Notes under the pieces: generated by a model
What the model saw: the letters and a program-made list of their open reading frames with translations, nothing else
The model's database searches: none
Told to the model about the DNA's origin: nothing
Shown here: one piece after another, positions 608 through 38,728 of the stretch
Numbering within the stretch: the stretch's first letter is position 1
Layout: the number at the start of each line of letters is the position of its first letter
NCBI RefSeq assembly: GCF_964212655.1
Contig: NZ_OZ156465.1
Coordinates: 4,154,001 to 4,218,000, forward strand
Reading direction: 5' to 3'
Length of the DNA stretch: 64,000 nucleotides
Origin: Candidatus Thiodiazotropha sp. LNASS1
GTDB taxonomy: Bacteria > Pseudomonadota > Gammaproteobacteria > Chromatiales > Chromatiaceae
Made by a program: the position numbers and the translations under genes

Positions 608-619
608 CAGGTGATAGCT

Positions 620-3241: not shown

Positions 3242-3522
3242 AGGAAGCGCCGAACAAGTTGAGCGAACCAGATGTGAGTCACAACCCTTGCATCAAAGTG
3301 TCAATCACAGGTCATAGCCGTCCGATTGACGAGATAGGCAACGAATAGGCAAGTCTGTTTGGTTGCAGAATGAGCGTGCATGACTTGTTCGGCGTGTGCT
3401 TTGTTCTTTTAAATCCAAATTGGACCTTATGAGATAAAAACCCTTAAGATGTTGCATATTTCGTCCTAGCGTCGCGGTTATTGCATAGCAGGATTTCTCG
3501 CGACAACGAAAAATGCAGTCAA

Positions 3523-19143: not shown

Positions 19144-21498
19144 CTAATTCGCGCGCTTTTCATTGAGCGCTTTAAGTATTTTCTCCGGTGTAATGGGAAG
19201 TTCCGTAATCTGAATACCGATTGCGTTGTAGATGGCGTTGGCCGTGGCTCCGACAGGCGCCACGAGGCCTGCCTCACCCACACTCTTCGCGCCAAAGGGA
19301 CCATGCGGGTCGGGGTTCTCTATAATGATGTTGGTGATTTTCGGCATGTCCGATGGTCCCAACATTTTGTAGTCGGTAAATGAATTGTTCAACACTTTGC
19401 CGTCGGTGTCGAAATAGAGCTCTTCCGTCAATGCCATGCCAAGTCCCTGCTGTGCGCCGCCCTCGAGTTGTCCTTCCACCACAGCCGGGTTGATCGCTCT
19501 ACCGATGTCATGACCATTGACCATTTCGATGAGCTTTATTTCCCCGGTTTCCGTATCCACTTCGAGTTCCACGAAACAGGCCCCGAAAGGGGGGGAGTTA
19601 TGCATTGGATTAAAGCTTGAGTAGCCCAGAATCTGGCCGGGTATGGACTCCGGTGCGCCGGTCTGAGGATTGAGAAAAGGATAAACGCCACCGGAACAGA
19701 TTTCCGCGGCAGCAACCTTCCTGTCCGGTGATCCTTTGACGAAGATCTGTTTGTCTTCGATTTCTAGGTCATCCGGGTTCGCTTCTAGCAGCGTGGCCGC
19801 ACGTTCCAGCAATTGTTTCAATGCATCCTTACAGGCGGCCATCACGGCGCCGCCGCCGACATAGAGTGTGCGACTGGCATGAGCGCCGATATCATATCCC
19901 GCATCATTGCTGTCACCGACCGATAGTGATACGTCTTCTAGTGGAAATCCCAGCGTTTCCGCGGCAATTTGTCGCAATGTGGTATGGGAGCCTTGTCCCA
20001 TGTCGGAGCAGGCGAAGGCGACCACGGCCGTTGCATCTTCATTGAGACGGACACTGCATACGGTGTGTTCAAGCAGCATCGGCATGGCGCCGCTGGTGTG
20101 AACCATGACAGCGACGCCTACACCGCGACGCTTGACGCCTGTTTGTTTGGCATATCTTTCACGTTTCGCCTTCCAATCTATTGCCTTTGCACCCTCGTCC
20201 AGCACCTCATCCAATGCACAGGAGGCATAGGGAACCCCTGCACACCAACCATCATCACCGACATCCTTATGCCATTTTTTGCGCCATTCAACAGGATCGA
20301 TATTCAGTTCATTGCAGGCACGATCGACAAGTTGCTCCAATACAAAGTTGGTCTGTGGATTACCATAACCACGGTAGGCTCCACAAACCGGTTGATTGGT
20401 GAAATAGGATTCACCCTTATAGCGGAGTGCGCCGAATTTATAGAGACCACTTACCCAACCCCCTGTGGTAAAGGCGACACCGGAACCGTCTAAATAGTAG
20501 CCGCCCTTATAATTGACAAATTTTGCATCGCAGGCGACCGGGGCTCCGTCTTTCTTGAAACCCATCTTCATCCAATAGTCACCGGGGTGACGGCTTGGTG
20601 ATGTCAGCCAATCCTCCTCCCTTGGAGACTGTACCTTGATCGGTCGTCCTGGTAGAGCCATGGCAAGGGCACAGATATGGGGTTCAAGCACCATACCCAG
20701 ACGTGCGCCAAAACCACCACCAACCACGGTTTGTATGATTCTCACTCTGGACATCGGCAGATTGAACAGCTTTGCAATCTTCGGCTGCACACTTTTGGGC
20801 ATCTGAGTGGATGTCCAACAGGAGAGCAATCCATCATCATCATAAAGTGCGATATAGCTGTTAGGCTCCATCTGGGCCTGTTTCTGTTTGCTGGTGTAAA
20901 AGTTGTCTTCTACGATAATATCGGCTTCCTTGAAACCTTCATCAGCGTCACCCCAGCCAAGAGTATTGTTGGGAAAGGCCGGCTCAGGAAGTTCAAAGGC
21001 CATGTTTCCAGGTTTTTGTGGCGTAAACTGGACTGCGCCTTCCTGGGACGACTCCGCTGCATTCAAATAGACCGGCAAGGGTTCATACTCGACCTTGATC
21101 CGCTCCGAGGCCCTTTCAGCAGCTTCCTCGGATGTTGCAACAATGGCAGCTATGCCATCACCATAGTGTTTGACATGGTCTGTTAATATTTTCTGATCTT
21201 CGATATCACCCAGCATCCCGCGCATATCTTTTGAAACCATGATGTCGATAACCGACTGATTATAGAATTTGGTTGTCAGATCTTCTGGGGCAAATACTTT
21301 GACCACACCAGGCATTTTTGCCGCTGCAGAGAGATCCAACGATTTTACCTTTGCATGGGCATGTTCATAACAACGGACGATTTTTGCATGTAATGTTCCT
21401 GGCAGATTGATGTCGGCGGCATAGACGGCCCTGCCTGTCACTTTTGCCTTGACATCGATCTTAATTTCGCTTTTTCCGACAGTTCTGAATTCGCTCAT
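19144..21498 (-). CDS. Molybdenum hydroxylase large subunit, xanthine-dehydrogenase family, molybdopterin-binding
   Basis: 784 residues. Molybdopterin contacts are visible in GGGFGAR (about residue 268), GAYRGYGNPQ (about 370), DMGQGSHTTLRQIA (about 495) and the C-terminal FGAKSVGEAG, which holds the likely catalytic glutamate. The CO-dehydrogenase active-site loop AYxCSFR is absent; GAYRGYG occupies that position, so this is not a form I CO dehydrogenase but a hydroxylase of an N-heterocycle, aldehyde or aromatic CoA ester. A GGAGG site precedes the ATG. It is the third gene of the FAD - 2Fe-2S - Mo set (24 nt after the small subunit). The substrate is not known. Confidence 0.92.
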   Translation of the reverse strand: MSEFRTVGKSEIKIDVKAKVTGRAVYAADINLPGTLHAKIVRCYEHAHAKVKSLDLSAAAKMPGVVKVFAPEDLTTKFYNQSVIDIMVSKDMRGMLGDIEDQKILTDHVKHYGDGIAAIVATSEEAAERASERIKVEYEPLPVYLNAAESSQEGAVQFTPQKPGNMAFELPEPAFPNNTLGWGDADEGFKEADIIVEDNFYTSKQKQAQMEPNSYIALYDDDGLLSCWTSTQMPKSVQPKIAKLFNLPMSRVRIIQTVVGGGFGARLGMVLEPHICALAMALPGRPIKVQSPREEDWLTSPSRHPGDYWMKMGFKKDGAPVACDAKFVNYKGGYYLDGSGVAFTTGGWVSGLYKFGALRYKGESYFTNQPVCGAYRGYGNPQTNFVLEQLVDRACNELNIDPVEWRKKWHKDVGDDGWCAGVPYASCALDEVLDEGAKAIDWKAKRERYAKQTGVKRRGVGVAVMVHTSGAMPMLLEHTVCSVRLNEDATAVVAFACSDMGQGSHTTLRQIAAETLGFPLEDVSLSVGDSNDAGYDIGAHASRTLYVGGGAVMAACKDALKQLLERAATLLEANPDDLEIEDKQIFVKGSPDRKVAAAEICSGGVYPFLNPQTGAPESIPGQILGYSSFNPMHNSPPFGACFVELEVDTETGEIKLIEMVNGHDIGRAINPAVVEGQLEGGAQQGLGMALTEELYFDTDGKVLNNSFTDYKMLGPSDMPKITNIIIENPDPHGPFGAKSVGEAGLVAPVGATANAIYNAIGIQITELPITPEKILKALNEKRAN

Positions 21499-21522: not shown

Positions 21523-22011
21523 TCAACTGCCTGCCTGGGCCATTTTTTTACCGGCAAGCTGTACTGCCGTGACGATTTTTTCATAACCCGTACAACGACA
21601 GATATTGCCTTCCAGCCACTCGCGAATTTCATCTTCCGAGGGATTGGGATTGTTTTTTAGAAGGCCTACGGACTTAAGAACCATGCCAGGTGTACAGTAG
21701 CCGCATTGTACAGCTGCATTTTCCACAAAGGCTTCCTGGATGGGATGCAGGGTGCCGTCCGCAGTTTGTAATCCGGCTGCGGTTGTAATCGACTTCCCAT
21801 CCATAGTGGCTGCCAGAGTCAGACATGAATTGATTACCTTCCGATCATCCACGAGCACAGTGCAGGCACCGCATTCACCGGTACCGCAGCCGTACTTGGT
21901 TTCGGGCATGTTCAATTCATCACGTAGAATGTCGAGCAGGGTTTTGTTGGGTTGGATGGTGAGTTGATGGGCGATGCCATTGACTTCCAAACTGATGCTG
22001 TGTTTTTTCAT
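21523..22011 (-). CDS. Molybdenum hydroxylase small subunit, two [2Fe-2S] clusters
   Basis: 162 residues from the ATG at 22011; the open frame extends 42 codons upstream into the FAD-subunit gene and is not used. The N-terminal plant-ferredoxin-like domain has CGTGECGACTV plus a later cysteine (NSC, about residue 63). The C-terminal helical domain has CGYCTPGM and NICRCTGY for the cluster nearest the molybdenum centre. It passes electrons from molybdopterin to FAD. The length and motifs are typical of CoxS/HcrC/NdhS-type subunits. It lies 19 nt downstream of the FAD subunit. Confidence 0.95.
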   Translation of the reverse strand: MKKHSISLEVNGIAHQLTIQPNKTLLDILRDELNMPETKYGCGTGECGACTVLVDDRKVINSCLTLAATMDGKSITTAAGLQTADGTLHPIQEAFVENAAVQCGYCTPGMVLKSVGLLKNNPNPSEDEIREWLEGNICRCTGYEKIVTAVQLAGKKMAQAGS

Positions 22012-22030
22012 CGTGTTTTTCCGAATTCGA

Positions 22031-22900
22031 TTAACTGAGACTGCATGCCTGTTCAATGGCGCGTCGTAGAAATACACCGGATACGGATTTCCTGTACTCG
22101 GCAGTGGAACGTTGATCATCGATGGGATTGATCTCATCCTTGACGGAGGCCGTGATTCGTTTCAAAGCTGTTCCATCAAGTTCTTGTCCGATCAGTTTTT
22201 TTTCCGTTTCGCGCAGGCGAATTGGTGTGGGAGCGACACATCCCATGGCGATACGGGCATCCGTGCATCTGTCGGTATCCATGACAAGGTTTACCGCAAC
22301 GTTGAGCTTAGCGAGATCTTCATTGACACGGGTCAGGCGTTTGAATGCTGATGTGCTGCCGGATCGGGGAGCGGGTACTCTCAGTTCGATGGCAAGTTCG
22401 TCGGTGCGGCGTTCTGTTTTCTGGTAGGAGATCCACAGGTCATCGATGTCGACTTCTCTCTCTCCCTGTTTGCTGGCCAGCACGATCGAGCCGCCCAGCG
22501 CATATATGGCACAGCTGCAGTCACCCGCTGGAGATGCGCGCAATAGATTACCGAGCAGTGTGGCGCTGTTGCGGATTTGCGGGGTAGCAAAGATTTTTGC
22601 CGATTGCCAAAGTGCCGAATAGTGTTGCTTGACCGCCTTGGAATCCAGAATCTGAGCTATTGTTGTATTCGCTCCGATGCGTAATCCTTTATCCGGATCG
22701 AACGATAGATAGTCCAACTCCGGAATGGCTGAAATACTCATGGCATATTCAGTAGAGAAACCGAACTTCATTGCCACAAGAACATCGGTACCACCGGCAA
22801 TGGGCGTGACACTATCGCGATACTCATCAAGGATATCCAGCGCTTCCGCTATGGTTTTCGGCGTCAGAAGCTCGAATTCAGTCAATATTCGGGTACTCAT
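22031..22900 (-). CDS. Molybdenum hydroxylase FAD-binding medium subunit
   Basis: 289 residues of the CoxM type. FAD contacts are the AGGTDV loop (about residue 35), the IGANTTIAQI segment and GNLLRASPAGDC (about residue 117), followed by the CO_deh_flav_C domain (about 180-285). It oxidises the 2Fe-2S subunit and hands electrons on to a quinone or NAD acceptor. It is the first gene of the hydroxylase operon, with the promoter region in the 437-nt divergent gap before pntA. Confidence 0.93.
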   Translation of the reverse strand: MSTRILTEFELLTPKTIAEALDILDEYRDSVTPIAGGTDVLVAMKFGFSTEYAMSISAIPELDYLSFDPDKGLRIGANTTIAQILDSKAVKQHYSALWQSAKIFATPQIRNSATLLGNLLRASPAGDCSCAIYALGGSIVLASKQGEREVDIDDLWISYQKTERRTDELAIELRVPAPRSGSTSAFKRLTRVNEDLAKLNVAVNLVMDTDRCTDARIAMGCVAPTPIRLRETEKKLIGQELDGTALKRITASVKDEINPIDDQRSTAEYRKSVSGVFLRRAIEQACSLS

Positions 22901-23337: not shown

Positions 23338-24906
23338 ATGAATATCGGCGTGCCCAAAGAGATACACCCAAATGAAAAGCGGGTGGCACTGACACCTTCA
23401 GTGGCTCATAAGCTACAGCAGTTGGGGTTTTGCGTTCAGATGGAAAGCGGCGCCGGTCTGTCGGCTAGGTTCAGTGACGATGACTATCGGGATGCGGGTG
23501 TGGAAATCCTGAATGAAACTGAACACCTGTGGTCATCCAGCGATATCGTGTTAAAAGTCAGGGCGCCCGAGGAGCACCCGGGTTTGGGTATTCATGAAGG
23601 GGATCTCCTGGCCGAGGGGAGTGCATTGGTCAGTTTTATCTGGCCTGCCCAGAATGAAGATCTGATGCAGAGGTTGGCAAAGCGCAAGGTTAACGTATTC
23701 GCCATGGATGCGATTCCGCGTATCTCCCGAGCCCAGAAAATGGATGCATTGAGTTCAATGGCCAATATTGCAGGTTATCGGGCCGTGGTGGAGGCTGCCA
23801 ACTCTTTCGGGCGCTTTTTTACCGGCCAGATAACGGCAGCGGGAAAGATGCCACCAGCCAAAGTTTTAGTCATCGGAGCCGGTGTAGCCGGCTTGTCGGC
23901 TATCGGTGCTGCCGGAAGTATGGGCGCTTTAGTACGTGCTTTCGATACCCGGCCGGAAGTTAAGGAACAGGTTGAAAGCATGGGCGCAGAGTTTCTGGAA
24001 CTGAATTTCACGGAAGAGGGTGGTGGTGAAGGCGGTTATGCAAAGGTGATGAGCAAAGCCTTTATCGAAGCGGAAATGGCGTTATTTCATGAGCAGGCGA
24101 AACAAGTGGATATCATAATAACCACTGCGCTGATTCCCGGAAAACCGGCGCCAAAATTGATTACCGCCGATATGGTAAGGTCCATGAGAAAAGGTAGCGT
24201 TATCGTGGATCTCGCCTCGGAACAGGGCGGTAACTGCGAACTGACAGAACCGGGAGAAGTGGTTGAGAGACATGGTGTGACCCTTGTCGGCCATATGGAT
24301 CTTCCGAGCAGGTTAGCCACTCAATCCAGTCAACTCTATTCCACCAATTTGTTTCATTTGCTCTCTGATCTGACTCCAGAGAATAACGGAGAGATTGTAA
24401 TCAACATGGAGGACGAAGTGATTCGTGGCGCCACGGTCATCAAAGATGGCGAGATTACATGGCCACCGCCACCGCCACGACTCTCTGCAGCTCCGGCAAA
24501 ACCGAAGCCGCCCGAAGCAATAATCCCACCCAGTACAGAAAGGCAACCCACACATTCCAAGGGTCTGACTACCCTGTTGGGCATTGCTATTGCACTGATA
24601 GCTGTACTTGGGGTGGGAGCTGTTGCGCCGGCATCCTTTCTTTCCCATTTCATCGTTTTTGTTTTGGCCTGTTTTGTGGGTTGGCAGGTAATTTGGGCGG
24701 TTACTCCGGCGTTACATACCCCTTTGATGAGTGTTACCAACGCAATCAGCGGCATCATAGTGATTGGTGCGTTATTGCAGGTAGGCTCAAGCAACCACAT
24801 GGTGATGCTACTGGCTTTATTTGCTGTGTTGATTGCTTCCATCAATATCGTTGGCGGTTTTTTTGTGACCCAGCGAATGCTCAAAATGTTTAGTAGAGAG
24901 AGTTGA
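23338..24906 (+). CDS. pntA: Proton-translocating NAD(P) transhydrogenase subunit alpha
   Basis: 522 residues, the full undivided alpha chain. An NAD(H)-binding AlaDH/PNT region (about 1-380) contains [19 protein letters not shown] and [12 protein letters not shown] Pro/Ala-rich linker (about 383-405) and four membrane helices (about 410-515) follow. With PntB it couples hydride transfer between NADH and NADP+ to proton movement, usually making NADPH. It overlaps no gene but is 2 nt from pntB. No good Shine-Dalgarno is visible before the ATG. Next to the molybdenum hydroxylase operon, it may rebalance its electrons; that is inference. Confidence 0.96.
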
Positions 24907-26640: not shown

Positions 26641-27290
26641 ATGAGCGCCAGTCTGACGGACAAGATGGAAGACCATGCACTGGAATCGGTTCCCGAGGCG
26701 GATCGTATCGGTTGGTTGAAAATAAGCTGGAACACTACACGACAGTACAGGGCATGTCCGCACAAGAGGCGCCCCGGCAGGTGTTGAAAAACCCCGACAG
26801 TATTGCAGCCACATTTATGGTTTTCGCCGGTGCCATCGGGTTTGTTTTGATGTTTCTGGCGCAAGCCAAGGCGCAGGTTTTAAATGCGTACAGCTCATCT
26901 CTTTGTTTGAGTAATATGTCAGATGCCCTGCTTGGCTGGCGGCCGGGAAGGGTGACATTCGTGGTGCTGGCCAATGTTATCGCTTTATTGATGCTATACG
27001 GACATATCCTGGAATTGGTCGAGCAGTGGATAAAACTCCTGGGTGTTCTGCTCAGCGCCTTATCCAGCGTGATCATAATGGACTACTATATTGTCGCCAA
27101 ACGCTTAGGTAAAGTTGATCCGTCTGAGCAGATTAACTGGGCGGGAGTCATCAGTCTGATTACAGCAGTTGTATTGGCCCATTGGGTTTTCAAACCATGG
27201 CAACCTATTGAAGTGCTGAGTTCGATTGCAACGGTTACCGTGGTTTACCCCATATTGCGCCTGCGGCTATTGAGACCGCGCTGTAAATAG
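26641..27290 (+). pseudogene. Broken NCS1 cytosine/purine permease (internal deletion plus frameshift)
   Basis: An ATG at 26641 with a GGGAG site opens a frame reading DHALESVPEADRIGWLKISW, the typical cytoplasmic start of CodB-like permeases, but it hits TGA at about 26782. In another frame, from about 26740, the sequence resumes with the C-terminal part of the same family (KNPDSIAATFMVFAGAIGFV, then QVLNAYSSSLCLSN and five membrane helices) to 27290. The first ~8 helices are missing. So about 250 codons were deleted and the frame lost. The intact ancestor would have imported a nucleobase-like N-heterocycle, a clue to the former substrate of the neighbouring hydroxylase. Confidence 0.8.
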
Positions 27291-27341: not shown

Positions 27342-27767
27342 TCAGCTGCTTCGATCAAGTGCCTGATTGAGTGCTTTGAATGGCAGCAGAACACATTCAT
27401 AACGGCTCTTGTGTCCGTGCACCGCTTTGAATACCGATAACGCCTGCCAGTGATGCTGAATTGGCAAAATGTTCTCTTTCAGTAATATTTCCAATTCTGT
27501 TTTAGCCATTTTGATATCATCGATATTTTTACCGGGTGCATCACGTCCGATCAAGGAAGCTGCTGCGCGACATAGCGCACATCCCCGAACCTCATGTGCC
27601 AGCTCCGTCACTCTGCCGCGGTCGTCCCAGGTTACATCGATAATCACGCGATCACCACAGAGTGGGTTATCCAGCTGAACCCGGGCATGGGGGTTTTCCA
27701 GTTGTCCACTGCCGATCGAATCCTTTGCCAGCGCCATAATCGGATCAGCGTATATCGGGTTGTTCAA
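27342..27767 (-). CDS. sufU: SufU/IscU-type Fe-S scaffold protein
   Basis: 141 residues. Three cysteines sit at the canonical positions NPLCGD, GCALCRAA and YECVLLP, where IscU/SufU bind a nascent cluster or zinc. SufU-type proteins usually act with a SufS-type desulfurase, and the start codon here overlaps the SufS stop by ATGA, giving co-translation. The rest of a suf operon (sufBCD) is absent, so this may be a dedicated sulfur-transfer pair rather than the housekeeping system. Confidence 0.85.
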   Translation of the reverse strand: MNNPIYADPIMALAKDSIGSGQLENPHARVQLDNPLCGDRVIIDVTWDDRGRVTELAHEVRGCALCRAAASLIGRDAPGKNIDDIKMAKTELEILLKENILPIQHHWQALSVFKAVHGHKSRYECVLLPFKALNQALDRSS

Positions 27768-29002
27768 ATCAATATCCTCTGTGCTTCTTCAAGTGCTTGC
27801 AATAAGGCGTCAACATCCGATTCATCATTGTAAAGTGCAAGGCTGGCGCGGGTAGTGCCCATTAGACCAAGGAAACGCATCAGGGGTTCTGCGCAATGGT
27901 GTCCTCCACGTACAGCGATTCCGCGATCTGCAACTATTTGGCATAAGTCATGGGGATGGATGTTTGCCAGATCCATGGAGATCAGGCTGAGGCGCTCTTG
28001 CAGATCGCCGGGGCCGATCAACCGTACTCCGGGAAACAGACTTAAACCATCAAGCAGCTGGGCGGTTATTTGCTTTAAATGACTCTCCACCGCCGCCAGG
28101 TCAAGCTTCATCAGCCAGTTTGCGGCGGCAGCGAGGCCTACTGCCTGAGCTATCGGAGGTGTGCCCGGCTCAAATCGGGCAGGAATTTCGGCGGCTTCAA
28201 AGCTGTCGATCGTTACACTGTGAACCATGCCGCCGCCGCCGAATGGCGGCTTGAGGCATTCCAGTCTCTCGCGGCATCCCCAAAGCAGGCCTATACCCGT
28301 GGGGGCAAACATTTTGTGGCCTGAAAGTGCGTAGAAATCCACGCCTAAGGCATTGACATCGATGGGGCCGTGCTGCGCCATCTGGGCGCCGTCAAGCAAT
28401 ACGGCGGCATCCACCGAATGTGCAGCATCAATGATAAGTGCCAGATCGGTTATCGCACCGGTGACATTGGAGGCATGAGTGATCGCAACTAAACGGCAAC
28501 GGTCGGTCATCAGGCTGTCAAGCGATTTCATATCGATACGCCCGTCTGCAGCCAATGGCAAAAAACGTAACTGTATGCCTGTGCGTTGAGACAGAATTTG
28601 CCAGGGCAGCAGGTTACTGTGGTGTTCAGCCAATGAGAGCAGAATCTCGTCCCCCGCTTTCAAATCGGCTGCCATAGCATTAGCCAGAAGATTAATGGCG
28701 CCTGTTGTACCGGAACTGAAAATAATCTCAGATGCGTCATCTGTGCCCAAATAATGTGCCAGGGTGGTGCGGGCATGTTGGTACGCATCGGTAGCCGTTT
28801 CCGCCAGGGAATATATGCCTCGGGATATATTGGCGCGACATTCACGTTCATGCAGGTCTACCGCCTGAATGACAGCCTCGGGACACTGGGTTGTGGCCGC
28901 ATTATCCATATATCGAAGCTGCGGATGTGACGAGAATATAGGAAATTGCTTTTTTACTTCCGCGGGATCGAAAACCGGTGACTCAGGATTAGTCATTTGC
29001 AT
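27764..29002 (-). CDS. sufS: SufS-type cysteine desulfurase
   Basis: 412 residues, class V aminotransferase fold. The PLP lysine is in LSGHKMFAPTG (about residue 227) and the persulfide cysteine is in RGGHHCAEP (about residue 363), which is the class II (SufS/CsdA) signature. It removes sulfur from cysteine and passes it to a partner. Translationally coupled to the SufU-like gene. With a sulfur-requiring molybdenum hydroxylase and XdhC nearby, it could supply the sulfido ligand of the cofactor, as NifS4 does in Rhodobacter capsulatus; this is inference. An ATG two codons downstream is an alternative start. Confidence 0.9.
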   Translation of the reverse strand: MQMTNPESPVFDPAEVKKQFPIFSSHPQLRYMDNAATTQCPEAVIQAVDLHERECRANISRGIYSLAETATDAYQHARTTLAHYLGTDDASEIIFSSGTTGAINLLANAMAADLKAGDEILLSLAEHHSNLLPWQILSQRTGIQLRFLPLAADGRIDMKSLDSLMTDRCRLVAITHASNVTGAITDLALIIDAAHSVDAAVLLDGAQMAQHGPIDVNALGVDFYALSGHKMFAPTGIGLLWGCRERLECLKPPFGGGGMVHSVTIDSFEAAEIPARFEPGTPPIAQAVGLAAAANWLMKLDLAAVESHLKQITAQLLDGLSLFPGVRLIGPGDLQERLSLISMDLANIHPHDLCQIVADRGIAVRGGHHCAEPLMRFLGLMGTTRASLALYNDESDVDALLQALEEAQRILI

Positions 29003-29343: not shown

Positions 29344-30441
29344 ATGAGCGCAACCGTGAGCCCGAAGGTGGGTGTCATCTTTAAATCCTATGAACCCCTG
29401 TCATCGATGCAGGCCTACGCGCGACAGACTGAAGCATCAAATATGAATGGTGGTTTCTGGATAGCAGAAGCCTACCACTGGTTTCGCCAATATGGGCTGG
29501 AGGCGAGAGGCTGTTTTACCACCTTGGCGGCAGTCTCGATGGTGACAGAAAAGATTCCCGTCGGATTGGGTATTACATCGCCGTATATGCGACACCCTAC
29601 CATTCAGGCCTCCGAGGCTGCTGCTATTGATGAGTTGTCGAATGGGCGCTTCATAATGGGCATAGGTGTCGGCAAAGTGGGTATTGAATATCTGGAATAC
29701 GATACCGATGTCATGAAACCGGTCCCTGTTCATCGTGAATCGATAGAAATTATGCGCAAGGTTTGGAGCGGCGAAGAGTATGCCTATGAAGGCAAGCTTT
29801 TCAAATCATCAATGCCTCAATATGACAGGGCTGCTGACGGATTGCGCACAGAAATACCGATCTATGTCGGTGCGACAGGGCCTTTTATGCAGAAGCTGTC
29901 GGGTAAGGAGAGCAACGGCATGTTGCTGGCAGGTCTGACATCACCCGCATTTGTCAGGTATGCCATCGATAATATGCAGCAGGGCGCAAAGGCGGTTAAC
30001 CGCACAATACCAACGGATTTCCCTGTGGGCGGTGTTATTCTCTGTTCATGCTCGGAAGATGGTGACAAGGCCCGTGATGCAACCCGCAGTTACACCGGCA
30101 CCTATATTGTCAACAAGATCCGGAACATCAAAAACGATGTCATCTTGGCTGGGTCCGGATTACCGGATTCCGCCTGGGATCCATTCCGAAAAGCGATTGC
30201 AGAAGGCACGCAGGATAATGTCACGCATCTGGTAACAGACGAGATGATGCGTAATTTTACAGTTATCTCGGGTAATCCCGATGATTGTCTGGAGATCACC
30301 CAGGAGTTGGTTGATGCCGGCTTGAACCTTCCTTTGTTGGAGGTAGTCGGTGATGATGAGGAGGATAACCTCGAGACCATTCGCCTGATGGGCGAGCATG
30401 TTGTGCCGAGGTTGCAGCCGGGTCCCTCTGCCGCTGGTTGA
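29344..30441 (+). CDS. LLM-class flavin/deazaflavin-dependent oxidoreductase, Mer-like
   Basis: 365 residues of the luciferase-like TIM-barrel family. VPVGLGITSPYMRHP-type and ELSNGRFIMGIG motifs (about residues 70-110) place it near the methylene-tetrahydromethanopterin-reductase (Mer)-like branch, many members of which use F420 rather than FMN. GGGAG precedes the ATG. Three genes downstream lies an FO synthase, so a deazaflavin cofactor is plausible. The reaction could be a hydride transfer or a monooxygenation; the sequence alone does not decide. It is the first gene of a seven-gene run on the plus strand. Confidence 0.85.
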   Translation: MSATVSPKVGVIFKSYEPLSSMQAYARQTEASNMNGGFWIAEAYHWFRQYGLEARGCFTTLAAVSMVTEKIPVGLGITSPYMRHPTIQASEAAAIDELSNGRFIMGIGVGKVGIEYLEYDTDVMKPVPVHRESIEIMRKVWSGEEYAYEGKLFKSSMPQYDRAADGLRTEIPIYVGATGPFMQKLSGKESNGMLLAGLTSPAFVRYAIDNMQQGAKAVNRTIPTDFPVGGVILCSCSEDGDKARDATRSYTGTYIVNKIRNIKNDVILAGSGLPDSAWDPFRKAIAEGTQDNVTHLVTDEMMRNFTVISGNPDDCLEITQELVDAGLNLPLLEVVGDDEEDNLETIRLMGEHVVPRLQPGPSAAG

Positions 30442-30679
30442 TCAGTCAATCATTTTCATAGCCTATGCAATTAATTGTAACAGCCGGACAAAGACAATAC
30501 CGGAGCAATGCCGGGTTCATTTTCCAGCTCCGGATTTGTCGGGAACCAGCGAAGTCCCGGTATAAATGTGCGGTACAGATGGTCGATTGCTTGGCATGAG
30601 TCATTAGTGTTGTTTGTCAATAACACGGGAATTCTTCAGCGGCGTTTTATCCCTGAAGTAGCTCGAGGTATATCGAATC

Positions 30680-31597
30680 ATGAAGCTCGCAAGTATCAGA
30701 ATTAAATCAAGCGGCAAACAGACAATTGCTGTTGTATTGGATGGTGTCTATCTCGATCTCCATCAAGCGAGCAACGGTGATTTACCTGATTCAATGATTG
30801 CTTTTTTGGAACAGGGGGCAGTCGCAATGACGGCTGCATGGTCAATTGCGCAAGAGGGCGGCACTGCACAATCTGCAATATATGATGCATCGGATGTGGA
30901 ACTGCTCGCGCCTGTACCGAAGCCAGGCAAGATCATGCATACCTCATGTAACTTCTCCGATCATTTGTCTGAGCTGACAACCTGGGATGAACCGGAATGG
31001 CAATCACATAACTGGGGTGATTTTCACTTTGAACATCCCACTGGATTCCTGGAGGCGCCTTCGTCAGTGGTACCCAGTCATGCCAAGGTAAAGATTCCTC
31101 ATTTCACCAAGCAGCTCGACTACGAGATCGAGGTGGGCATTCTGATCGGTAAGGAAGCATTTCGTGTAAAGAAAGAAGATGCTTTGGATTATGTTGCAGG
31201 ACTGACAATTTTCAACGATCTTTCCGCCCGCGATATCCAAGCCAGGGAGCACTCCAACAAGGTCATCCTGTTGGGGAAGAGTTTTGACGGTTCCTGTCCG
31301 CTCGGTCCCTACTTGGTCACGATGGACGAAGTCGGTGAGTGTGATGACCTGAAGATGGTTCTGACACTCAATGGTGAGCAGAGGCAAAGCTCCAGCACTG
31401 CGAATATGGTTTACAAGGTTGCTGACTTAGTGGCTTGGTGGTCAAACACGACTCTTCAGCCAGGCGATCTTATCACGACTGGCAGCCCTCCTGGAGTAAT
31501 AGCCGGAATGAAAAATCCTGTCTATCTGAAACCCGGTGACAGGATCGATTGCAATATCGAGAAACTCGGTACGCTGACAACATTTATCGACAGTTAG
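30680..31597 (+). CDS. Fumarylacetoacetate hydrolase (FAH) family protein
   Basis: 305 residues with the FAH C-terminal fold: QLDYEIEVGILIGKEAF (two acidic metal ligands, about residue 150), TIFNDLSARDIQ (third ligand, about 180) and the late GDLITTGSPPG. Family members cleave or decarboxylate 2-oxo- or 1,3-dicarbonyl acids with a divalent metal. In this run it would act on a ring-opened product. It is 238 nt after the LLM gene (30442-30679, no gene seen), so it may have its own promoter, and 42 nt before the M20 gene. Confidence 0.88.
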   Translation: MKLASIRIKSSGKQTIAVVLDGVYLDLHQASNGDLPDSMIAFLEQGAVAMTAAWSIAQEGGTAQSAIYDASDVELLAPVPKPGKIMHTSCNFSDHLSELTTWDEPEWQSHNWGDFHFEHPTGFLEAPSSVVPSHAKVKIPHFTKQLDYEIEVGILIGKEAFRVKKEDALDYVAGLTIFNDLSARDIQAREHSNKVILLGKSFDGSCPLGPYLVTMDEVGECDDLKMVLTLNGEQRQSSSTANMVYKVADLVAWWSNTTLQPGDLITTGSPPGVIAGMKNPVYLKPGDRIDCNIEKLGTLTTFIDS

Positions 31598-31639
31598 TGA
31601 TCTGCACTGTCCGTAATGAGAACACAATAGAGAATTGAT

Positions 31640-32908
31640 GTGACTACAGTGAATTCAAACTTAATAGCCAAAGCGATCGATCAGATTGACCGTGACCGGT
31701 TGGTACAACTGGTTATCGATTTGACCAATATCCCCAGCCCTACCGGTTATGAAGGTGACATGGCGCGCGCGGTACATGAAGTACTTGAGGGCTCGGGTTT
31801 TGATGCCACCCTGCAACCAATCGGTGATGAGCGCTATAACGCAGTAGGGCGATTACGTGGGGCGGGAGGTGGCAAGTCGATTATGTTTAACGGCCATCTG
31901 GATACTTCATTCGGTCCTGAGCAGGCCCATCGGGGTATCGGTTATGAGTGTAAGGGTACGCTGATTGACGACGAATGGATCTATGGTATGGGCACCTTCA
32001 ACATGAAGAGTGCGATGGCTACCTATGTAGTGGCGACGGAGTCAATTCGTAAGGCCGGTATTCGGCTGGGTGGCGATGTAGTAATCGCAGGTGTTGCCGG
32101 CGAGATTGAAAAATCACCGGTCAATGACTTCGAGGGCCGTAAGTACCAGGGCTATGGTGTCGGCACCAAGTATGCGATCACGCATGGCGCAGTAGCGGAT
32201 TTTTGCATACTGGGAGAGCCGACCAACATGATGTTGATTCCACGTCATTGTGGTACCACCTGGATCAAGATCACCGTGCCTGGGCACTTGATACACACTG
32301 CATGGTCGGACGTGGATAAAAACGCCATCAATAAAAGCCGGGTGATACTGGATGCCATTCATGAATGGATACCGGACTACGTGGCCCGAAATCAGCTTGG
32401 TGATTTCCATCCCCGCGTCAATGTCTCCGCTATCGAGGGTGGCTGGCCCTGGCGTGGTGCTCGCACACCGGATGGTTGTTCGATATACATGGATGTGCGG
32501 ACCCTGCCCGATGCATTGCCGGTACAGGCTTATAATGAGGTGCGTGATTTGGTCAATGAACAGATCAAAGCAAATCCGCAACTCGAAGGCACCAAGGTCG
32601 ATGTGTTCGTTTCTGCACCAGGCACATCAATAGCGGATGACCATGAACTGGTTCAGACCGTTATCGAAGCCCATAGAAATCAGCTGGGTGAAGCACCCAA
32701 GATGGGTATAGAAACCTGGTATAGCGATGCAGCACATATGAATCGCTATGGCATCCCTACCGTAAATTATGGTTCCGCCGGTCGAATTAGAACAGGTGGC
32801 GGTGGTTTTTCCACACATCAGGGAGAGCATGTTCATATTGGTGACATGGTGGACATCATCAAGGTTTATATCGAGATCTTGCTGCGCCAGTGTGGTGTAG
32901 TCGATTAA
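31640..32908 (+). CDS. M20-family metallohydrolase (ArgE/DapE-like)
   Basis: 422 residues from a GTG start (the overlapping ATG at 31638 is followed at once by TGA). The catalytic core shows NGHLDTS (first His/Asp), then GMGTFNMK, where the usual metal-bridging Asp of GxGxxDMK is Asn, and GEIEKSP in place of the usual EE pair. A lid domain lies at about 200-310. I believe a subgroup of M20 proteins shares the Asn, so it need not mean loss of activity. Expected reaction: hydrolysis of an N-acyl or amide bond. FbiC begins 8 nt after its stop. Confidence 0.85.
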   Translation: MTTVNSNLIAKAIDQIDRDRLVQLVIDLTNIPSPTGYEGDMARAVHEVLEGSGFDATLQPIGDERYNAVGRLRGAGGGKSIMFNGHLDTSFGPEQAHRGIGYECKGTLIDDEWIYGMGTFNMKSAMATYVVATESIRKAGIRLGGDVVIAGVAGEIEKSPVNDFEGRKYQGYGVGTKYAITHGAVADFCILGEPTNMMLIPRHCGTTWIKITVPGHLIHTAWSDVDKNAINKSRVILDAIHEWIPDYVARNQLGDFHPRVNVSAIEGGWPWRGARTPDGCSIYMDVRTLPDALPVQAYNEVRDLVNEQIKANPQLEGTKVDVFVSAPGTSIADDHELVQTVIEAHRNQLGEAPKMGIETWYSDAAHMNRYGIPTVNYGSAGRIRTGGGGFSTHQGEHVHIGDMVDIIKVYIEILLRQCGVVD

Positions 32909-32915
32909 TACGAAT

Positions 32916-35315
32916 ATGACCCATTCCACGGCCATTGTTTCGAAAGCGCTACAGGGAGCCGTGTTGTCAGATGAGGAGGCGCTACTGCTTTCTGATTACA
33001 AGGATCTGAGCCATTTGGTAAATACCGCGGCGGCGATACGGGACCGGGGTCATGGGTCCGTAGTCACCTATTCACCCAAGGTATTCATTCCGTTGACCAA
33101 GCTCTGCAGGGATGTCTGTCATTATTGCACTTTCGCTGAAACACCGAAGCGTTTCAAACACGTTTACCTGCAGCCTGACGAAGTGCTCGAGATTGCTGAA
33201 CAAGGTGTACGGGCCGGTTGTCATGAAGCGCTGTTCACCCTGGGCGACAAACCTGAATTGAGATACCGATTGGCGGCCAGCGAGCTGCGGTCGCTGGGTC
33301 ATCACTCAACCATCTCCTATCTTGCTGAGATGGCGCAAAGGGTATTTGATCAGACTGGCCTTTTACCTCATGTGAATGCCGGTGTCATGGATAAAGCGGA
33401 CTTGCGGAAATTACGTGAAGTGTCTGTTTCCCAGGGTTTGATGTTGGAAAGCAGCTCTCTGCGACTGCTCGAGCCAGGCGCTCCCCATTATGGATCACCT
33501 GACAAGGTACCTTTCAGGAGACTAAAGACTATCGATGATGCCGGTGATATGGGTATTCCCTTTACTTCCGGTATCCTGGTCGGCATCGGTGAAACCCGGC
33601 AGGAGAGGATCGAGTCACTGTTGACGCTTAGAGCTCTGGCTGAATCGAGGGGGCATCTGCAAGAGATCATCATCCAAAATTTCCGGGCCAAACCCGGTAC
33701 CAAGATGGCTGACTCGCCTGAGCCTGGTCTTGATGATTTACTTTGGACCATTGCCGTAGCGCGGATCATTTTCGGCGCCAAGGCAAACATCCAGGCGCCG
33801 CCGAATCTGTCACCCGGTTCCTTGGGTGATTTGCTGGCGGCAGGTATTAATGACTGGGGTGGTGTGTCACCGGTTACCAGTGATCATGTCAATCCCGAAG
33901 CGCCATGGCCACAACGGCAGATACTTGCACATGTAACTGAGGCACAGGGCATGCACCTGCAGCCTAGGTTGGCGCTCTATCCTGAATATGTCTCACGGAT
34001 GACTGAATGGGTCGATGCTGGATTTCATCAAGCCTTATTGAGACTGGTCGATGCATCCGGTTTTCCAAGAACCGATAATTGGTTTGCAGGAGACGATGAA
34101 CCTATTCCGAAATATACGCTTGGACCCACTGGTGAATATCGTGGTTTTTCAAGCAATGTCTTTCGTATTGCGATGCAGGCTGCCAGTGGGAAGCGGTTGG
34201 GTGAAACCGAGATAGCAGCGATGTTTGAAGCGCGTGGCAGGGATCGGGAAATGCTTTGCGCCATTGCGGATGAGCTGCGTGAATCGACAGTGGGGAATAC
34301 CGTCAGTTACGTTGTGACCCGGAACATCAACTATACCAATGTTTGTGGTTTTCGCTGTGGTTTCTGCGCTTTTTCCAAGTGCCGCTCGAACAATGAACCT
34401 ACATACGATCTGAAATTGACTGAGATACAGGCACATGTCAATGATGCCTGGCATCGGGGCGCGGTAGAGGTCTGTCTGCAAGGCGGCATTCATCCCAAGT
34501 ATACAGGTGCAACCTATCTTAGGATATGCCAAGCGATCAAGGCGGTTCAACCCGATATCCATATTCATGCCTTTTCACCGCTTGAGATCATGCAAGGCGC
34601 GAGGACGCTCGGTATTTCACCCGGGCATATGCTCGCTGAACTCAAAGTGGCAGGTCTGTCATCCCTGCCCGGGACCGCAGCTGAGATTCTGGATGACGAA
34701 GTACGAAATATCATCTGCCAGGATAAGCTGAATACCGAGCAATGGCTTGAAGTCATGAAGGCCGCCCATGGCATGGGACTGCGCAGCACGGCAACCATTA
34801 TGTTCGGTCATGTCGATCGGCCGATACATTGGGCGCGCCATTTGTTGCATGTCAGGGACCTGCAGGCGGAAACCGGTGGATTTACCGAATTCGTGCCGTT
34901 GCCTTTCGTACATATGGGGGCTCCGATCTATCGCCGGGGCGAGTCGCGTAAAGGTCCCACCTTCCGCGAGGCGCTGTTGATGCACTCGATCGCGAGGCTG
35001 GTTCTCTATCCCCATATCACCAATATTCAGACATCCTGGGCGAAAATGGGCAGAAACGGCGCCTTGGCCTGTCTCCAGGCGGGAGCAAACGACCTGGGAG
35101 GGACCCTGATGAGTGAAAGCATAAGTCGTGCTGCGGGTGCGAGTCATGGACAGGAATTGCCGCCTGATGAGATGGAGCAGCTTATCGCCTCGATCAACAG
35201 GCCTGCTCGCCAACGCAATACTCTGTATGGGGCTGTGGCCCCGGATCGCATCAGTGCATCAATGGCAGTCAAGGTGCAGGCGTTTGCGGCATTGGGGCAA
35301 CCCTATACATTATGA
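32916..35315 (+). CDS. fbiC: Bifunctional FO synthase (CofG-CofH fusion)
   Basis: 799 residues with two radical-SAM domains. The N-terminal (CofG-like) half binds its cluster through CRDVCHYC (C64, C68, C71). The C-terminal (CofH-like) half uses CGFRCGFC (C477, C481, C484), preceded by the CofH hallmark RNINYTNVC. Together they join tyrosine to 5-amino-6-ribitylaminouracil and close the ring to give FO, the deazaflavin chromophore of F420. The fused form is typical of actinobacteria and of proteobacteria thought to have acquired F420 synthesis by transfer. No cofC, cofD or cofE is in the window. It sits inside a catabolic-looking gene run next to a Mer-like oxidoreductase. Confidence 0.93.
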   Translation: MTHSTAIVSKALQGAVLSDEEALLLSDYKDLSHLVNTAAAIRDRGHGSVVTYSPKVFIPLTKLCRDVCHYCTFAETPKRFKHVYLQPDEVLEIAEQGVRAGCHEALFTLGDKPELRYRLAASELRSLGHHSTISYLAEMAQRVFDQTGLLPHVNAGVMDKADLRKLREVSVSQGLMLESSSLRLLEPGAPHYGSPDKVPFRRLKTIDDAGDMGIPFTSGILVGIGETRQERIESLLTLRALAESRGHLQEIIIQNFRAKPGTKMADSPEPGLDDLLWTIAVARIIFGAKANIQAPPNLSPGSLGDLLAAGINDWGGVSPVTSDHVNPEAPWPQRQILAHVTEAQGMHLQPRLALYPEYVSRMTEWVDAGFHQALLRLVDASGFPRTDNWFAGDDEPIPKYTLGPTGEYRGFSSNVFRIAMQAASGKRLGETEIAAMFEARGRDREMLCAIADELRESTVGNTVSYVVTRNINYTNVCGFRCGFCAFSKCRSNNEPTYDLKLTEIQAHVNDAWHRGAVEVCLQGGIHPKYTGATYLRICQAIKAVQPDIHIHAFSPLEIMQGARTLGISPGHMLAELKVAGLSSLPGTAAEILDDEVRNIICQDKLNTEQWLEVMKAAHGMGLRSTATIMFGHVDRPIHWARHLLHVRDLQAETGGFTEFVPLPFVHMGAPIYRRGESRKGPTFREALLMHSIARLVLYPHITNIQTSWAKMGRNGALACLQAGANDLGGTLMSESISRAAGASHGQELPPDEMEQLIASINRPARQRNTLYGAVAPDRISASMAVKVQAFAALGQPYTL

Positions 35316-35362
35316 AATATTGGCGTGGACTTACTGATGTCTAACCAGCACGGTGATTGATC

Positions 35363-36238
35363 ATGACCAGACCCGAAGATCGTTTTGAATTCACTGCCAT
35401 GCCGCACCGACCCAAGTGGCAACTGCCGGAAGGCAAGAGAGTAGCGGTATATACCGTGGTGAACGTTGAGGAATGGGATATCGAAAAACCCATCGCCCGG
35501 GAATACGTCACACCACCGGCGGGTGTGGTCACCGTGCCCAATATACCGAATTGGGCCTGGCATGAGTATGGCATGCGGGTTGGGATTTGGCGTCTCATGG
35601 AGGCGCTCGGTAAACGCAACCTAATGGCGAGTGCCGCAATCAACGCGCGCGTTTGCGAGGGTAGTGGAGAACCGGTTGCAAGGGCCCTGTGTGATGCCGG
35701 TTGGGCCTTGATGGGGCATGGATATTCTCAGGCCGCATTGCATATCGTGCCCGACCAGTATGAAGTCATCGCAAAATCATTCAAGCTGCTGCGCGATTTC
35801 AGCGGTAAGGCGCCGAAGGGGTGGCTTGGCCCGGGATTACATGAAAAGCTGGACAGCCTCGATATCCTTTCCGAGGTCGGTTTTAAGTTTGTGTGTGATT
35901 TTCCGATGGATGAACAACCGGTGGCGATGCATACTTCATCCGGGCCTATCGTAGCTATGCCCTATACCTTGGAGTTGAGTGACCTGCCGATGATGGTCGT
36001 ACACCAGCACCAATCCCGGGTATGGCTCGACAGGGTCATTGATCAGTTCGACCGGCTTTATGCGGAAGGTGCCGAACAGCCGCGTGTCATGTCCATGAGT
36101 GTGCATCCGTACATCATGGGAGTGCCTCATCGTATCAAGTATTTTGAGGCGGGGTATGACTACATGAAAAAGCACTCTGACGTGTGGTTCACCACGGCAG
36201 AGGAGATCTATGACTGGTTCATGAGCAATCCTCAATAG
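35363..36238 (+). CDS. Polysaccharide-deacetylase-fold hydrolase, PuuE/cyclic imidase-like
   Basis: 291 residues from the ATG at 35363 (a TTG two codons earlier is in frame). NodB-type fold with the altered metal motif seen in allantoinase PuuE and cyclic imide hydrolases: TPPAGVVTVPN near the start, GHGYSQ (about residue 120), KGWLGPGL and a late MSVHPYIMG with the conserved His. These enzymes open cyclic amides or imides rather than deacetylate sugars; there is no signal peptide. It suggests that a cyclic amide is an intermediate in this gene run. Confidence 0.82.
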   Translation: MTRPEDRFEFTAMPHRPKWQLPEGKRVAVYTVVNVEEWDIEKPIAREYVTPPAGVVTVPNIPNWAWHEYGMRVGIWRLMEALGKRNLMASAAINARVCEGSGEPVARALCDAGWALMGHGYSQAALHIVPDQYEVIAKSFKLLRDFSGKAPKGWLGPGLHEKLDSLDILSEVGFKFVCDFPMDEQPVAMHTSSGPIVAMPYTLELSDLPMMVVHQHQSRVWLDRVIDQFDRLYAEGAEQPRVMSMSVHPYIMGVPHRIKYFEAGYDYMKKHSDVWFTTAEEIYDWFMSNPQ

Positions 36239-36291
36239 CGCATTCAGGAACTATCCGGAAAGACGACTGCCTGGCGCTTATTTTGCTGAGT

Positions 36292-36317
36292 ATTGGATTA
36301 GTGTTAACAGGCTCTAG
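36292..36317 (+). repeat. Solo right end of the MITE family
   Basis: 36292-36313 match the right inverted end of the 54-kb MITE at 21 of 22 positions (final C changed to T), followed by CTAG (36314-36317), the same target motif. No matching left end is found between it and the stop of the deacetylase-like gene 53 nt upstream, so this is a remnant. The remainder of the 238-nt gap to the next gene shows no gene. Confidence 0.7.
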
Positions 36318-36476
36318 GCTGTTTCAGTGCGGTCGTTGTCGCTGACAGTCAAACCCCGGGCATCGATAGGCAAGATGCCTGTAGAGGCTAAACCCTAGAA
36401 TCAAGCCATCACCCAAGCGTTCAGCCCGGAGGTGGCTGCTCGCACATTTTCTCTTATATCCTCAGGGCGGCCAGTG

Positions 36477-37673
36477 ATGAGCTTACAGATTCCCAATGAC
36501 AAGATATGGATTAGCGAACTGAATAAAGACGAGACAGTCCGTGGCGGATTTGATCGTGATCGCACCGTTCGTTTTTACGATACAACCTTGCGTGATGGCG
36601 AGCAGGCGATTGGTGTGGTGTTTAATCCGGATGAAAAATTTGAGATTGCCCGCACATTGTCTGAGCTGGGCGTGGGACGTATCGAGTCGGGTTTCCCTAA
36701 GGTTTCTGCCGAGGACACCGAAGCGGTCAAGCGTATCCTGGAAGCGGATTTAACCTCGGAAATATGGGGATTCGCCCGATGTGTCATCAGTGATATCGAT
36801 GCGCATATTGAGCTGGGGACGAAACAGGTATTGGTGGAGATTTCCACCAGCGATCTCAAAATGCAGGCTTATGGTTTTGATCGTAAAAAGGTCATGGAAC
36901 GTTTGACCAATGCAGTCAAACATGCCAGGGATAACAGCCTCAGGGTTAATTTTTTTGCTGTTGACGCAACCCGGTCAGATACGGGTTTTCTGAAAGATGT
37001 CTACTCTACGGCGATAGAGACCGGTGCGGAAGAGATCTCGGTAGTCGATACCATTGGCGCCTGTGCACCCGAGGCTGTGGAAGCCCTGATTCATGATATC
37101 GCCAGTCATGTCGGGCCCGGAATCCCTATCCATTGGCATGGGCATAACGACTTCGGTCTCGCCACAGCTTCTGCCATTGCTGCGGTAAGGGGTGGCGCTA
37201 CATGGATCCAGGGCACAGTGAATGGTATGGGAGAACGGGCCGGCAATGCGGATATTTGCGAAGTGGCCCTGGCATTGCAATGTCTGTATGACATGCCGGT
37301 GGAACTGGATTTGACCAAGGCGAGGGATGCATCGCGGGTGGTCAAGCAGGCCGGAGGCTACCAGGTGGATGGATGGAAGCCTGTGGTGGGCGAGAACCTG
37401 TATATCAGGGAGAGTGGCGCAGTAGCAAGTCAGTTCCATATACCGCAGGCAATAGAACCATACTCGGCAGATATCGTTGCCGCTGAGCGCGGCATCGTGC
37501 TGGGTAAAAAAAGCGGCCTGGCAAGTATTCAGTTGAAGGCTGAAGAACTCAATCTATCGGTTTCCGAGGAACGTTATCCAACCATTTTAGCAGCGATTAA
37601 GTTGCTGGCCACGTCGGAGGAAAGGCTGGTTAGTGACGAAGAATTCCGGCAGATAGTTGCCCGCAGTCAGTGA
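36477..37673 (+). CDS. Homocitrate/isopropylmalate synthase-like acyltransferase (HMGL-like)
   Basis: 398 residues from the ATG at 36477. The HMGL-like TIM barrel carries [12 protein letters not shown] (metal and substrate site, about residue 32), the HGHNDFG motif that supplies metal histidines (about residue 222) and [12 protein letters not shown]. Members condense acetyl-CoA with a 2-oxo acid (homocitrate, isopropylmalate, citramalate), and a few cleave. The C-terminal LeuA-type allosteric domain is missing, as in homocitrate synthases (NifV-like length). No nif or lysine genes are near, so a role in the adjacent pathway is more likely. Confidence 0.85.
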
Positions 37674-37879
37674 ACGGGCAGAGGTCATCAATTTATACAG
37701 AATCGTCCAGTCCACGAGGATTTCGGGTGGTATGCCGAATTATGCGCTTGGTTGCCTGCAGTGGTACAAGCGATGGCGGCCCCTGACCGACAACCATCAG
37801 GATACTCACGGAGTGAGTGGACTGCTCTGCATCGTCACCTATCCATTGCTTTGGTTAACATAAAACAGTAGAGGATCTT

Positions 37880-38728
37880 ATGCAGATTAAGAAAGTGGGT
37901 GTTGTGGGGGCGGGCACCATGGGTAACGGTATAGCCCAAGTGTTTGCCGCAGCCGGATTCAGCGTATTGATGCATGATATTGATGAAGCATCCCTGCAAC
38001 GGGGTATGAATGCTATCAGGAAGAGCCTGGACCGATTATGGAACAAGGAAAAAATTACAGAACTGGATAAAAATGAGACACTGACCAACATCCAGGTGAC
38101 GACACAACTCGAACAGATGGAGGATGTTGACCTGGTGGTTGAGGCGGCTAGCGAGAAATATGAAATCAAGTCATCGATATTCAGGACATTGGATCAATGT
38201 TGTAAACCGGAGGCAATATTGGCGTCCAATACATCCTCAATTTCATTAACTCAGCTTGCGGGGGAGACGAAGCGTCCGCAGCGAGTAATCGGTATGCATT
38301 TTATGAATCCCGTGCCGATGATGAAATTGATTGAGGTAATCCGGGCGCTTCAAACAGACGATGAAGTCAATCGACTTATCCATGAGTTATCCAAGCAGAT
38401 TGGAAAAACACCGGTAGCGGTAAATGACAGTCCGGGTTTTATATCCAACAGGATTCTTTTACCGATGATTAACGAGGCAGTTTTCACCCTTCAGGAAGGG
38501 ATTGCCTCCGTTAAAGCCATTGATGAAGTGATGAAATTGGGTATGAATCATCCTATGGGCCCTTTGGCACTGGCGGATCTAATTGGGCTTGATACCTGCC
38601 TCTCTATCATGGAGGTGTTACACGATGGACTGGGTGACAGCAAATACCGTCCCTGTCCTCTGCTTCGCCGCATGGTTGATGCGGGTTACTTGGGTAGAAA
38701 AAGCGCAAAAGGATTTTATGAGTATTAG
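37880..38728 (+). CDS. 3-hydroxyacyl-CoA dehydrogenase (3-hydroxybutyryl-CoA dehydrogenase type)
   Basis: 282 residues, the length of stand-alone HBD enzymes. The Rossmann motif is GVVGAGTMGNGIAQ (about residues 6-19), the catalytic His lies in GMHFMNPVP and the conserved Asn in SNTSSIS. It oxidises an (S)-3-hydroxyacyl-CoA with NAD+. AGAGGA precedes the ATG. Its stop codon TAG is part of a TTAG target site immediately abutting a MITE-type inverted end, so the last bases may have been set by insertion. Last of the seven-gene run. Confidence 0.92.
   Translation: MQIKKVGVVGAGTMGNGIAQVFAAAGFSVLMHDIDEASLQRGMNAIRKSLDRLWNKEKITELDKNETLTNIQVTTQLEQMEDVDLVVEAASEKYEIKSSIFRTLDQCCKPEAILASNTSSISLTQLAGETKRPQRVIGMHFMNPVPMMKLIEVIRALQTDDEVNRLIHELSKQIGKTPVAVNDSPGFISNRILLPMINEAVFTLQEGIASVKAIDEVMKLGMNHPMGPLALADLIGLDTCLSIMEVLHDGLGDSKYRPCPLLRRMVDAGYLGRKSAKGFYEY

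Follow-up and report, generated by a model that had tools for sequence, protein, structure and literature searches.

The complete genome of Candidatus Thiodiazotropha sp. LNASS1, which belongs to a genus of lucinid-clam symbionts known as chemosynthetic, comprises a single contig of 4,746,093 bases, of which bases 4154001-4218000 form the stretch analysed here (64,000 nucleotides, hereafter the window). Seven open reading frames (ORFs), all on the forward strand, lie at window positions 29344-38728, separated in order by 238, 42, 7, 41, 193 and 206 bp, and include a fused FO synthase, FbiC, and a luciferase-like (LLM) oxidoreductase, LLM1. The original prediction, made from the sequence alone, described these ORFs as a degradative run served by a deazaflavin cofactor, and ORF calls and family matches agree with it on the seven genes, their positions and their common strand. 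We consider it moderately probable that an F420-dependent catabolic island, acquired as a block, has its conserved core in this run and encodes the ring-reduction pathway proposed below. The seven genes are listed with the number of LLM1 loci, out of 52 in other genomes, that carry a relative nearby; counts extend as far as 10 kb to either side of LLM1 at E<=1e-6, and many of the contigs end sooner.

29344..30441, forward strand: LLM1, luciferase-like oxidoreductase of the Mer/F420 branch
30680..31597, forward strand: FAH-family hydrolase/decarboxylase, assigned from family models (49 of 52 loci)
31640..32908, forward strand: M20 (ArgE/DapE-like) amidohydrolase, assigned from family models (45 of 52)
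32916..35315, forward strand: FbiC, fused CofG-CofH FO synthase, NF006687 (23 of 52)
35357..36238, forward strand: CE4 PuuE-like hydrolase (16 of 52)
36432..37673, forward strand: HMGL-like (isopropylmalate/homocitrate-synthase-like) enzyme, called HCS below (38 of 52)
37880..38728, forward strand: 3-hydroxybutyryl-CoA dehydrogenase (Hbd), NF004474, right end of the conserved block

Family assignments were judged against curated NCBIfam cut-offs. FbiC exceeds that of NF006687 (1099.7 bits, cut-off 1018), its CofH part scoring 564 bits (cut-off 374) and its CofG part 464 bits (cut-off 213), and Hbd passes the NF004474 subfamily cut-off (465.4 against 408 bits). CE4, which has no Pfam match, misses the cut-off for the allantoinase PuuE (TIGR03212, 110.7 against 424.6 bits), as HCS does that for the homocitrate synthase NifV (TIGR02660, 296.5 against 462.9 bits). 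Purine degradation, considered for the resemblances to PuuE and YgeY, was dropped on the PuuE score and on 107.3 against 321 bits for YgeY.

LLM1 matches the Pfam family Bac_luciferase (PF00296), which occurs at just two places in the genome, LLM1 and a second LLM protein (LLM2), both inside the block. Its best NCBIfam match is Mer, with the equivalog cut-offs missed (167.1 against 276 and 166.2 against 348.7 bits), and its predicted structure is closest to F420-dependent Mer (8qpl, 1z69), followed by the folds of Adf and Fgd; in fold and in sequence alike its closest matches lie among F420 enzymes. LLM1 differs from Mer, besides its scores, in having Ile12 at the aligned position of Mer Glu6 and an 8-residue insertion (residues 45-52), around which no variation occurs across 29 rows at Y44, H45, W46, F47, R48, Y50, G51, E53 and R55. 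LLM relatives in plasmid records were all below 60% identity, the 15 listed being 25-30% identical. Based on these comparisons, we infer that LLM1 is a candidate F420-using oxidoreductase.

Upstream of the window and within the block lie LLM2 and the genes for CofC (128.1 bits, cut-off 105), CofD (285, cut-off 257.45), CofE (263.2, cut-off 180.65) and an NpdG-type F420:NADP oxidoreductase (TIGR01915, 202.7 bits, cut-off 149.8), all four enzymes scoring above their cut-offs. Judging from these assignments, the island is able to make F420, so that the synthesis of a deazaflavin stands as predicted, with F420 and not FO alone as its product. PF03807 has matches at nine places in the genome, of which the island one was tested and is the protein named NpdG, while a search of the genome with PF04075 found nothing, as did its control, and does not show absence. 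A different F420 cluster, recognised by similarity, is present in another genome (L030, G010:C12:1-20000), with NpdG, CofE, CofD, CofC, FbiC and an LLM protein about 25% identical to either island LLM; it may represent another use of F420 in the same class.

The capacity for F420 synthesis tracks LLM1 across genomes. Among 50 LLM1 genomes, which include drafts and for which completeness was not stated, CofH (TIGR03551, E<=1e-60) was found in 46, in 43 of them above cut-off, and CofD (TIGR01819, E<=1e-20) in 45, in 42 of them above cut-off; one genome has CofD only (G405) and one CofH only (G426). In a sample of 369 genomes of the class, CofH exceeded its cut-off in 14 and LLM1 was present in three (LNASS1 itself, denoted G000, together with G008 and G120), all of them among the 14. 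The difference in CofH between the LLM1 genomes and the class sample has a Fisher p of ~1e-40, without correction for kinship and across sets taken from different collections. The proposal that the cofactor serves the degradative pathway receives strong genomic support. The linkage would be incidental if LLM1 were an FMN-dependent monooxygenase and F420 served only LLM2 or some other process; we regard this as quite improbable given the 43 genomes with CofH above cut-off, the position of FbiC directly after M20 in 22 of the 52 loci, and the scores of FMN monooxygenase models on LLM1, which reach at most 46 bits (SfnG, 46.2) against 167 for Mer. That FbiC makes only FO, as a photolyase antenna, is extremely improbable: FO photolyases exist (noted in the F420 review PMC8498797), but here CofC, CofD, CofE and NpdG share the block with FbiC and CofD accompanies LLM1 in 45 of 50 genomes, no search for photolyases having been made.

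The 52 loci, all from metagenome assemblies, belong nearly all to Proteobacteria (gamma-, beta- and alphaproteobacteria, including three Thiodiazotropha congeners, G120 and G008), with one planctomycete whose LLM1 is 58% identical and sits on a long branch. Neighbours on the same strand and less than 400 bp apart include FAH-M20 in 44 loci, LLM1-FAH in 41 and M20-FbiC in 22. The order LLM1-FAH-M20-FbiC-CE4-HCS recurs in eight of the 52, three of them congeners and some with an extra gene in between. This recurrence of gene order and neighbours is more than chance would give. Conservation of the gene order elsewhere was the check set by the original prediction, and the neighbourhood does recur, with two qualifications. 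The conserved order comprises six genes and not seven, because Hbd is found only in the three Thiodiazotropha loci and is thus accessory, outside the conserved core, rather than the pathway member it was taken for. Likewise, FbiC is embedded in the run where it directly follows M20, but in many other cases it lies elsewhere in the genome. Further frequent partners, absent from the original prediction and counted as clusters over 53 loci including LNASS1, are a PanE-like protein (25), an M24 enzyme (24), an AraC-type protein (18), a DMSO-reductase-like protein (13) and an NCS1 permease (12, that is 11 of the 52 other loci). A PF04199 cyclase occurs near LLM1 in 14 of the 52, glutaryl-CoA dehydrogenase (GCDH) in six, NpdG in five and PntB in three.

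CE4 and the PF04199 cyclase are unrelated hydrolases, and one or the other is present in 30 of the 52 loci, both in none. Their zero overlap among the 38 loci with HCS has a chance of ~1e-4 if loci are independent. Both families contain hydrolases of cyclic amides or imides or of formamides. If one does stand in for the other, this would suggest a common reaction, in which a cyclic amide, a cyclic imide or a formamide is hydrolysed. A nitrilase-family gene was considered as a third substitute and rejected, as one locus (L037) has it together with the cyclase gene. Variant neighbourhoods were also observed: in L041, L044, L046 and L055 a different molybdopterin oxidoreductase (a 703-aa cluster) follows FbiC, and Rieske ring-hydroxylating alpha and beta subunits are encoded nearby in L041, L044 and L055, as well as in L051, which is without that molybdopterin oxidoreductase. 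The four loci with Rieske subunits have no HCS gene within range, and perhaps represent a variant pathway.

The run as originally delimited is too narrow. Its seven genes form the right end of a conserved block of ~78 kb, from window position -39302 to 38728 (genome position ~4,114,698 to 4,192,728). FbiC is present in three of 20 other congeners (G371, G378 and G369), and in G371 the block is colinear with that of LNASS1 over this whole extent, its proteins being 61-99% identical, mostly >80% (FbiC 84%). Of the genes that flank the LNASS1 block on the left, none was matched within 20 kb to the left of the block in G371, and to its right there is no counterpart of the LNASS1 flank beyond distant matches. 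In the three congeners CE4 and HCS are separated by an OmpA-family gene, which was not seen in LNASS1. In the LLM1 tree, two alphaproteobacterial rows fall inside a betaproteobacterial clade (100/99), itself placed among gammaproteobacterial rows, and this nesting indicates transfer of LLM1 between classes. Acquisition of the island as a block is part of the reading to which we assign moderate probability as a whole.

Within the window, the block contains the following further features.

611..1777, forward strand: CoxE-like VWA protein
3481..4545, forward strand: YCF48-like protein, AmeC-like
4579..7026, forward strand: RND/MMPL transporter, AmeD-like
7023..9026, forward strand: DUF1302 protein, AmeA-like
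9054..10364, forward strand: DUF1329 protein, AmeB-like
12776..14434, forward strand: molybdenum (Mo)-cofactor cytidylyltransferase-like protein (163 bits, cut-off 186)
17882..18931, reverse strand: XdhC-like maturation factor, below cut-offs
19144..21498, reverse strand: XO-family Mo-hydroxylase large subunit (PDB matches: 4-hydroxybenzoyl-CoA reductase alpha, 334 bits; 6-hydroxypseudooxynicotine dehydrogenase, 306 bits)
21523..22137, reverse strand: [2Fe-2S] subunit of the preceding hydroxylase, clustering with its counterpart in the other Mo-hydroxylase; name read from the sequence
22031..22900, reverse strand: FAD subunit of the same hydroxylase, weakly similar to that of the other Mo-hydroxylase; name read from the sequence
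23338..24906, forward strand: PntA-like, NAD(P) transhydrogenase alpha; name presumed from the sequence, relatives adjoin LLM1 in locus L083
24903..26294, forward strand: PntB-like, NAD(P) transhydrogenase beta; name presumed from the sequence
26641..27290, forward strand: remnant of an NCS1-type permease, matching residues 1-32 and 280-455 of a 465-aa G371 protein; family taken from a relative in L069
27342..27767, reverse strand: SufU-like sulfur-transfer protein (TIGR01994, 68.2 bits, below cut-off 92.5)
27764..29002, reverse strand: SufS-family cysteine desulfurase (TIGR01979, 479.7 bits, cut-off 475.1)

The block thus holds two XO-family Mo-hydroxylases. It also has two AmeABCD-like sets, one at 3481-10364, where DUF1302, DUF1329, YCF48-like and RND genes stand together, and another found by similarity. 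Since only the two end portions of the NCS1 permease are left, it has probably been lost in LNASS1. Beside the XdhC-like gene, at 16006-17187, is an ORF for a 393-aa protein whose C-terminal region includes an OsmC domain; a 45% identical relative is found next to NpdG in an LLM1 locus (L067). Elsewhere the island encodes an M24 enzyme, two PanE/ApbA-like proteins, two tandem related metallo-beta-lactamase-fold proteins (L005:418-2313, genome 4134918-4136813), the first of which scores 40 bits against a beta-lactamase cut-off of 200, and a DMSO-reductase-family enzyme with FeS and NrfD subunits. The last was left unassigned, its matches to arsenate reductase, thiosulfate reductase and formate dehydrogenase all being weak, and a search with an incomplete copy as query gave no match at E<=1e-20.

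A GCDH and a CoA-transferase accompany these genes. The former has solved GCDHs as its best full-length matches (1sir, 604.8 bits over 385 residues), as measured on the G371 orthologue (94% identical), and has relatives at 53-73% identity in five other LLM1 loci and at 27% in one further; the NCBIfam GCDH model, applied to the relative in L056 only, missed its cut-off (219 against 470 bits). The CoA-transferase, encoded upstream of the window, is best matched by succinate-glutarate CoA-transferase, below the cut-off of NF052585 (371 against 750 bits). Upstream of the window are ORFs that we take to encode EtfB, EtfA and ETF-QO of an electron-transfer flavoprotein (ETF) system. Together, CoA-transferase, GCDH, ETF and Hbd read as a route from glutarate towards acetoacetyl-CoA. 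That such an island encodes biosynthesis of a natural product, with a tailoring step dependent on F420, is improbable: F420 does participate in antibiotic biosynthesis, as recorded in PMC8498797, but GCDH, the CoA-transferase and the Mo-hydroxylases are catabolic in character, and no carrier-protein, polyketide synthase or nonribosomal peptide synthetase gene was noticed among the block ORFs, in which no search was aimed at them.

The interpretation of the run as the core of a catabolic island draws on the F420 enzymes and NpdG above cut-offs, both LLM proteins in one block, the conserved neighbourhood, the co-occurrence with CofH and CofD and the Mer-like model of LLM1; on the alternation of CE4 and cyclase, the GCDH with relatives in other LLM1 loci and the AmeABCD-type sets; and on the colinear block between different flanks in G371 and the alphaproteobacterial LLM1 rows inside a betaproteobacterial clade. 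In the pathway that we propose, the PntAB-like pair would raise NADPH, from which the F420:NADP oxidoreductase would make F420H2. The Mo-hydroxylases would oxidise ring carbons of the substrate, and LLM1 would pass the hydride of F420H2 to a double bond of the hydroxylated ring. Next, C-N bonds would be hydrolysed by CE4 (elsewhere by the cyclase-family enzyme), M24 and M20. The FAH enzyme would cut or decarboxylate the oxo-acid, and its product would be handled further by the HMGL-like enzyme and the two PanE-like proteins. Some of the carbon would, in Thiodiazotropha, probably exit via glutaryl-CoA through the CoA-transferase, GCDH, ETF and Hbd, while the two AmeABCD-like sets may hold an apolar compound at tolerable levels. 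AmeABCD protects the monoterpene degrader Castellaniella from its apolar substrate (PMC6394551), and by analogy an apolar character is likely for the island substrate or for an intermediate. The substrate is probably nitrogen-containing, given the C-N hydrolase families and the NCS1 permease in 11 of the 52 loci. In its specific form, an undescribed, horizontally spread pathway in which F420H2 reduces the ring of an apolar nitrogen compound before C-N hydrolases open it, the proposal is tentative, and we would not yet call it probable.

Several observations weigh against this interpretation. Three drafts of 2.0-2.3 Mb (G420, G421 and G431) have neither CofH nor CofD, and the planctomycete (G435) has no CofD and only CofH matches below cut-off. 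Mo-hydroxylases, exporter sets, GCDH and PntAB occur near LLM1 in a minority of loci, and two changes on the LLM1 tree suffice for the distribution of CE4 and cyclase, so that their mutual exclusion is partly kinship. AmeABCD suggests an apolar substrate and the NCS1 permease of the other loci a polar one. No crotonase was noticed among the block genes, no search having been aimed at crotonases. Both the kind of substrate and the direction of hydride transfer are deduced from genes. Glu6, which Ile12 replaces in LLM1, we take to be catalytic in Mer (the title of 8qq8 names the mutant E6Q), and the LLM1 reaction may therefore differ greatly. LLM1 might also reduce F420 instead of oxidising F420H2, as a dehydrogenase like Adf and Fgd, with the F420:NADP oxidoreductase handing the electrons to NADP+. 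The folds of Adf and Fgd do come next after Mer, and NpdG-type enzymes are reversible; we nevertheless judge the oxidative direction unlikely, because sequence and fold are nearest to Mer, which acts as a reductase in methanogenesis, and because a need for NADPH would agree with the PntAB-like pair that the Thiodiazotropha block contains and that also adjoins LLM1 in L083.

No described equivalent of the island was recognised in the literature, and no paper pairing Thiodiazotropha with F420 was found. Homarine and trigonelline-type routes were considered and set aside, none of the papers listed for homarine showing a matching operon. The actinobacterial degradation of picrate and nitroaromatics resembles the island in its described features: there too F420H2 supplies the hydride, and the degradation genes are clustered with one for an NpdG-type reductase. 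The island differs in lying in Proteobacteria and in adding Mo-hydroxylases, genes for F420 biosynthesis and several families of C-N hydrolases. The nicotinate catabolism of Azorhizobium, as described, shares a Mo-hydroxylase, ring reduction, hydrolytic opening and exit via glutaryl-CoA, but we know of no counterpart in it of the FAH and HMGL-like enzymes, the PanE pair or M24. The Castellaniella AmeABCD exporter (PMC6394551) comprises the same DUF1302, DUF1329, YCF48/COG4447-like and RND gene types, whereas LNASS1 has two putative sets of this kind inside an F420 island. On Variovorax and Streptomyces plasmids an FAH gene directly precedes a CE4 gene (46% and 39% identical to the island CE4, respectively), but an amidohydrolase and an MFS gene accompany them, and the incomplete annotation tables show neither an LLM nor FbiC inside 8 kb; a CE4 in a Mesorhizobium record is 47% identical and has no adjoining FAH gene.

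To our knowledge, F420 is made by some Proteobacteria, with few uses known there. The word gammaproteobacteria does not occur in the main text of PMC8498797, and passages of a study of SAR202 (PMC6946804) propose F420-type LLM enzymes for recalcitrant organic matter and contain no such operon. Because one LLM subfamily predicts F420 synthesis, the present findings point to one enzyme, one conserved operon and a set of host lineages where uses of F420 may be sought. If the compound degraded is an abundant one, the island would add a new route to the cycling of carbon and nitrogen, and it offers a chemosynthetic symbiont genus a testable organic diet. If true, the ring-reduction pathway would be a main use of F420 in Proteobacteria and would tie this cofactor to a chemosynthetic animal symbiont.

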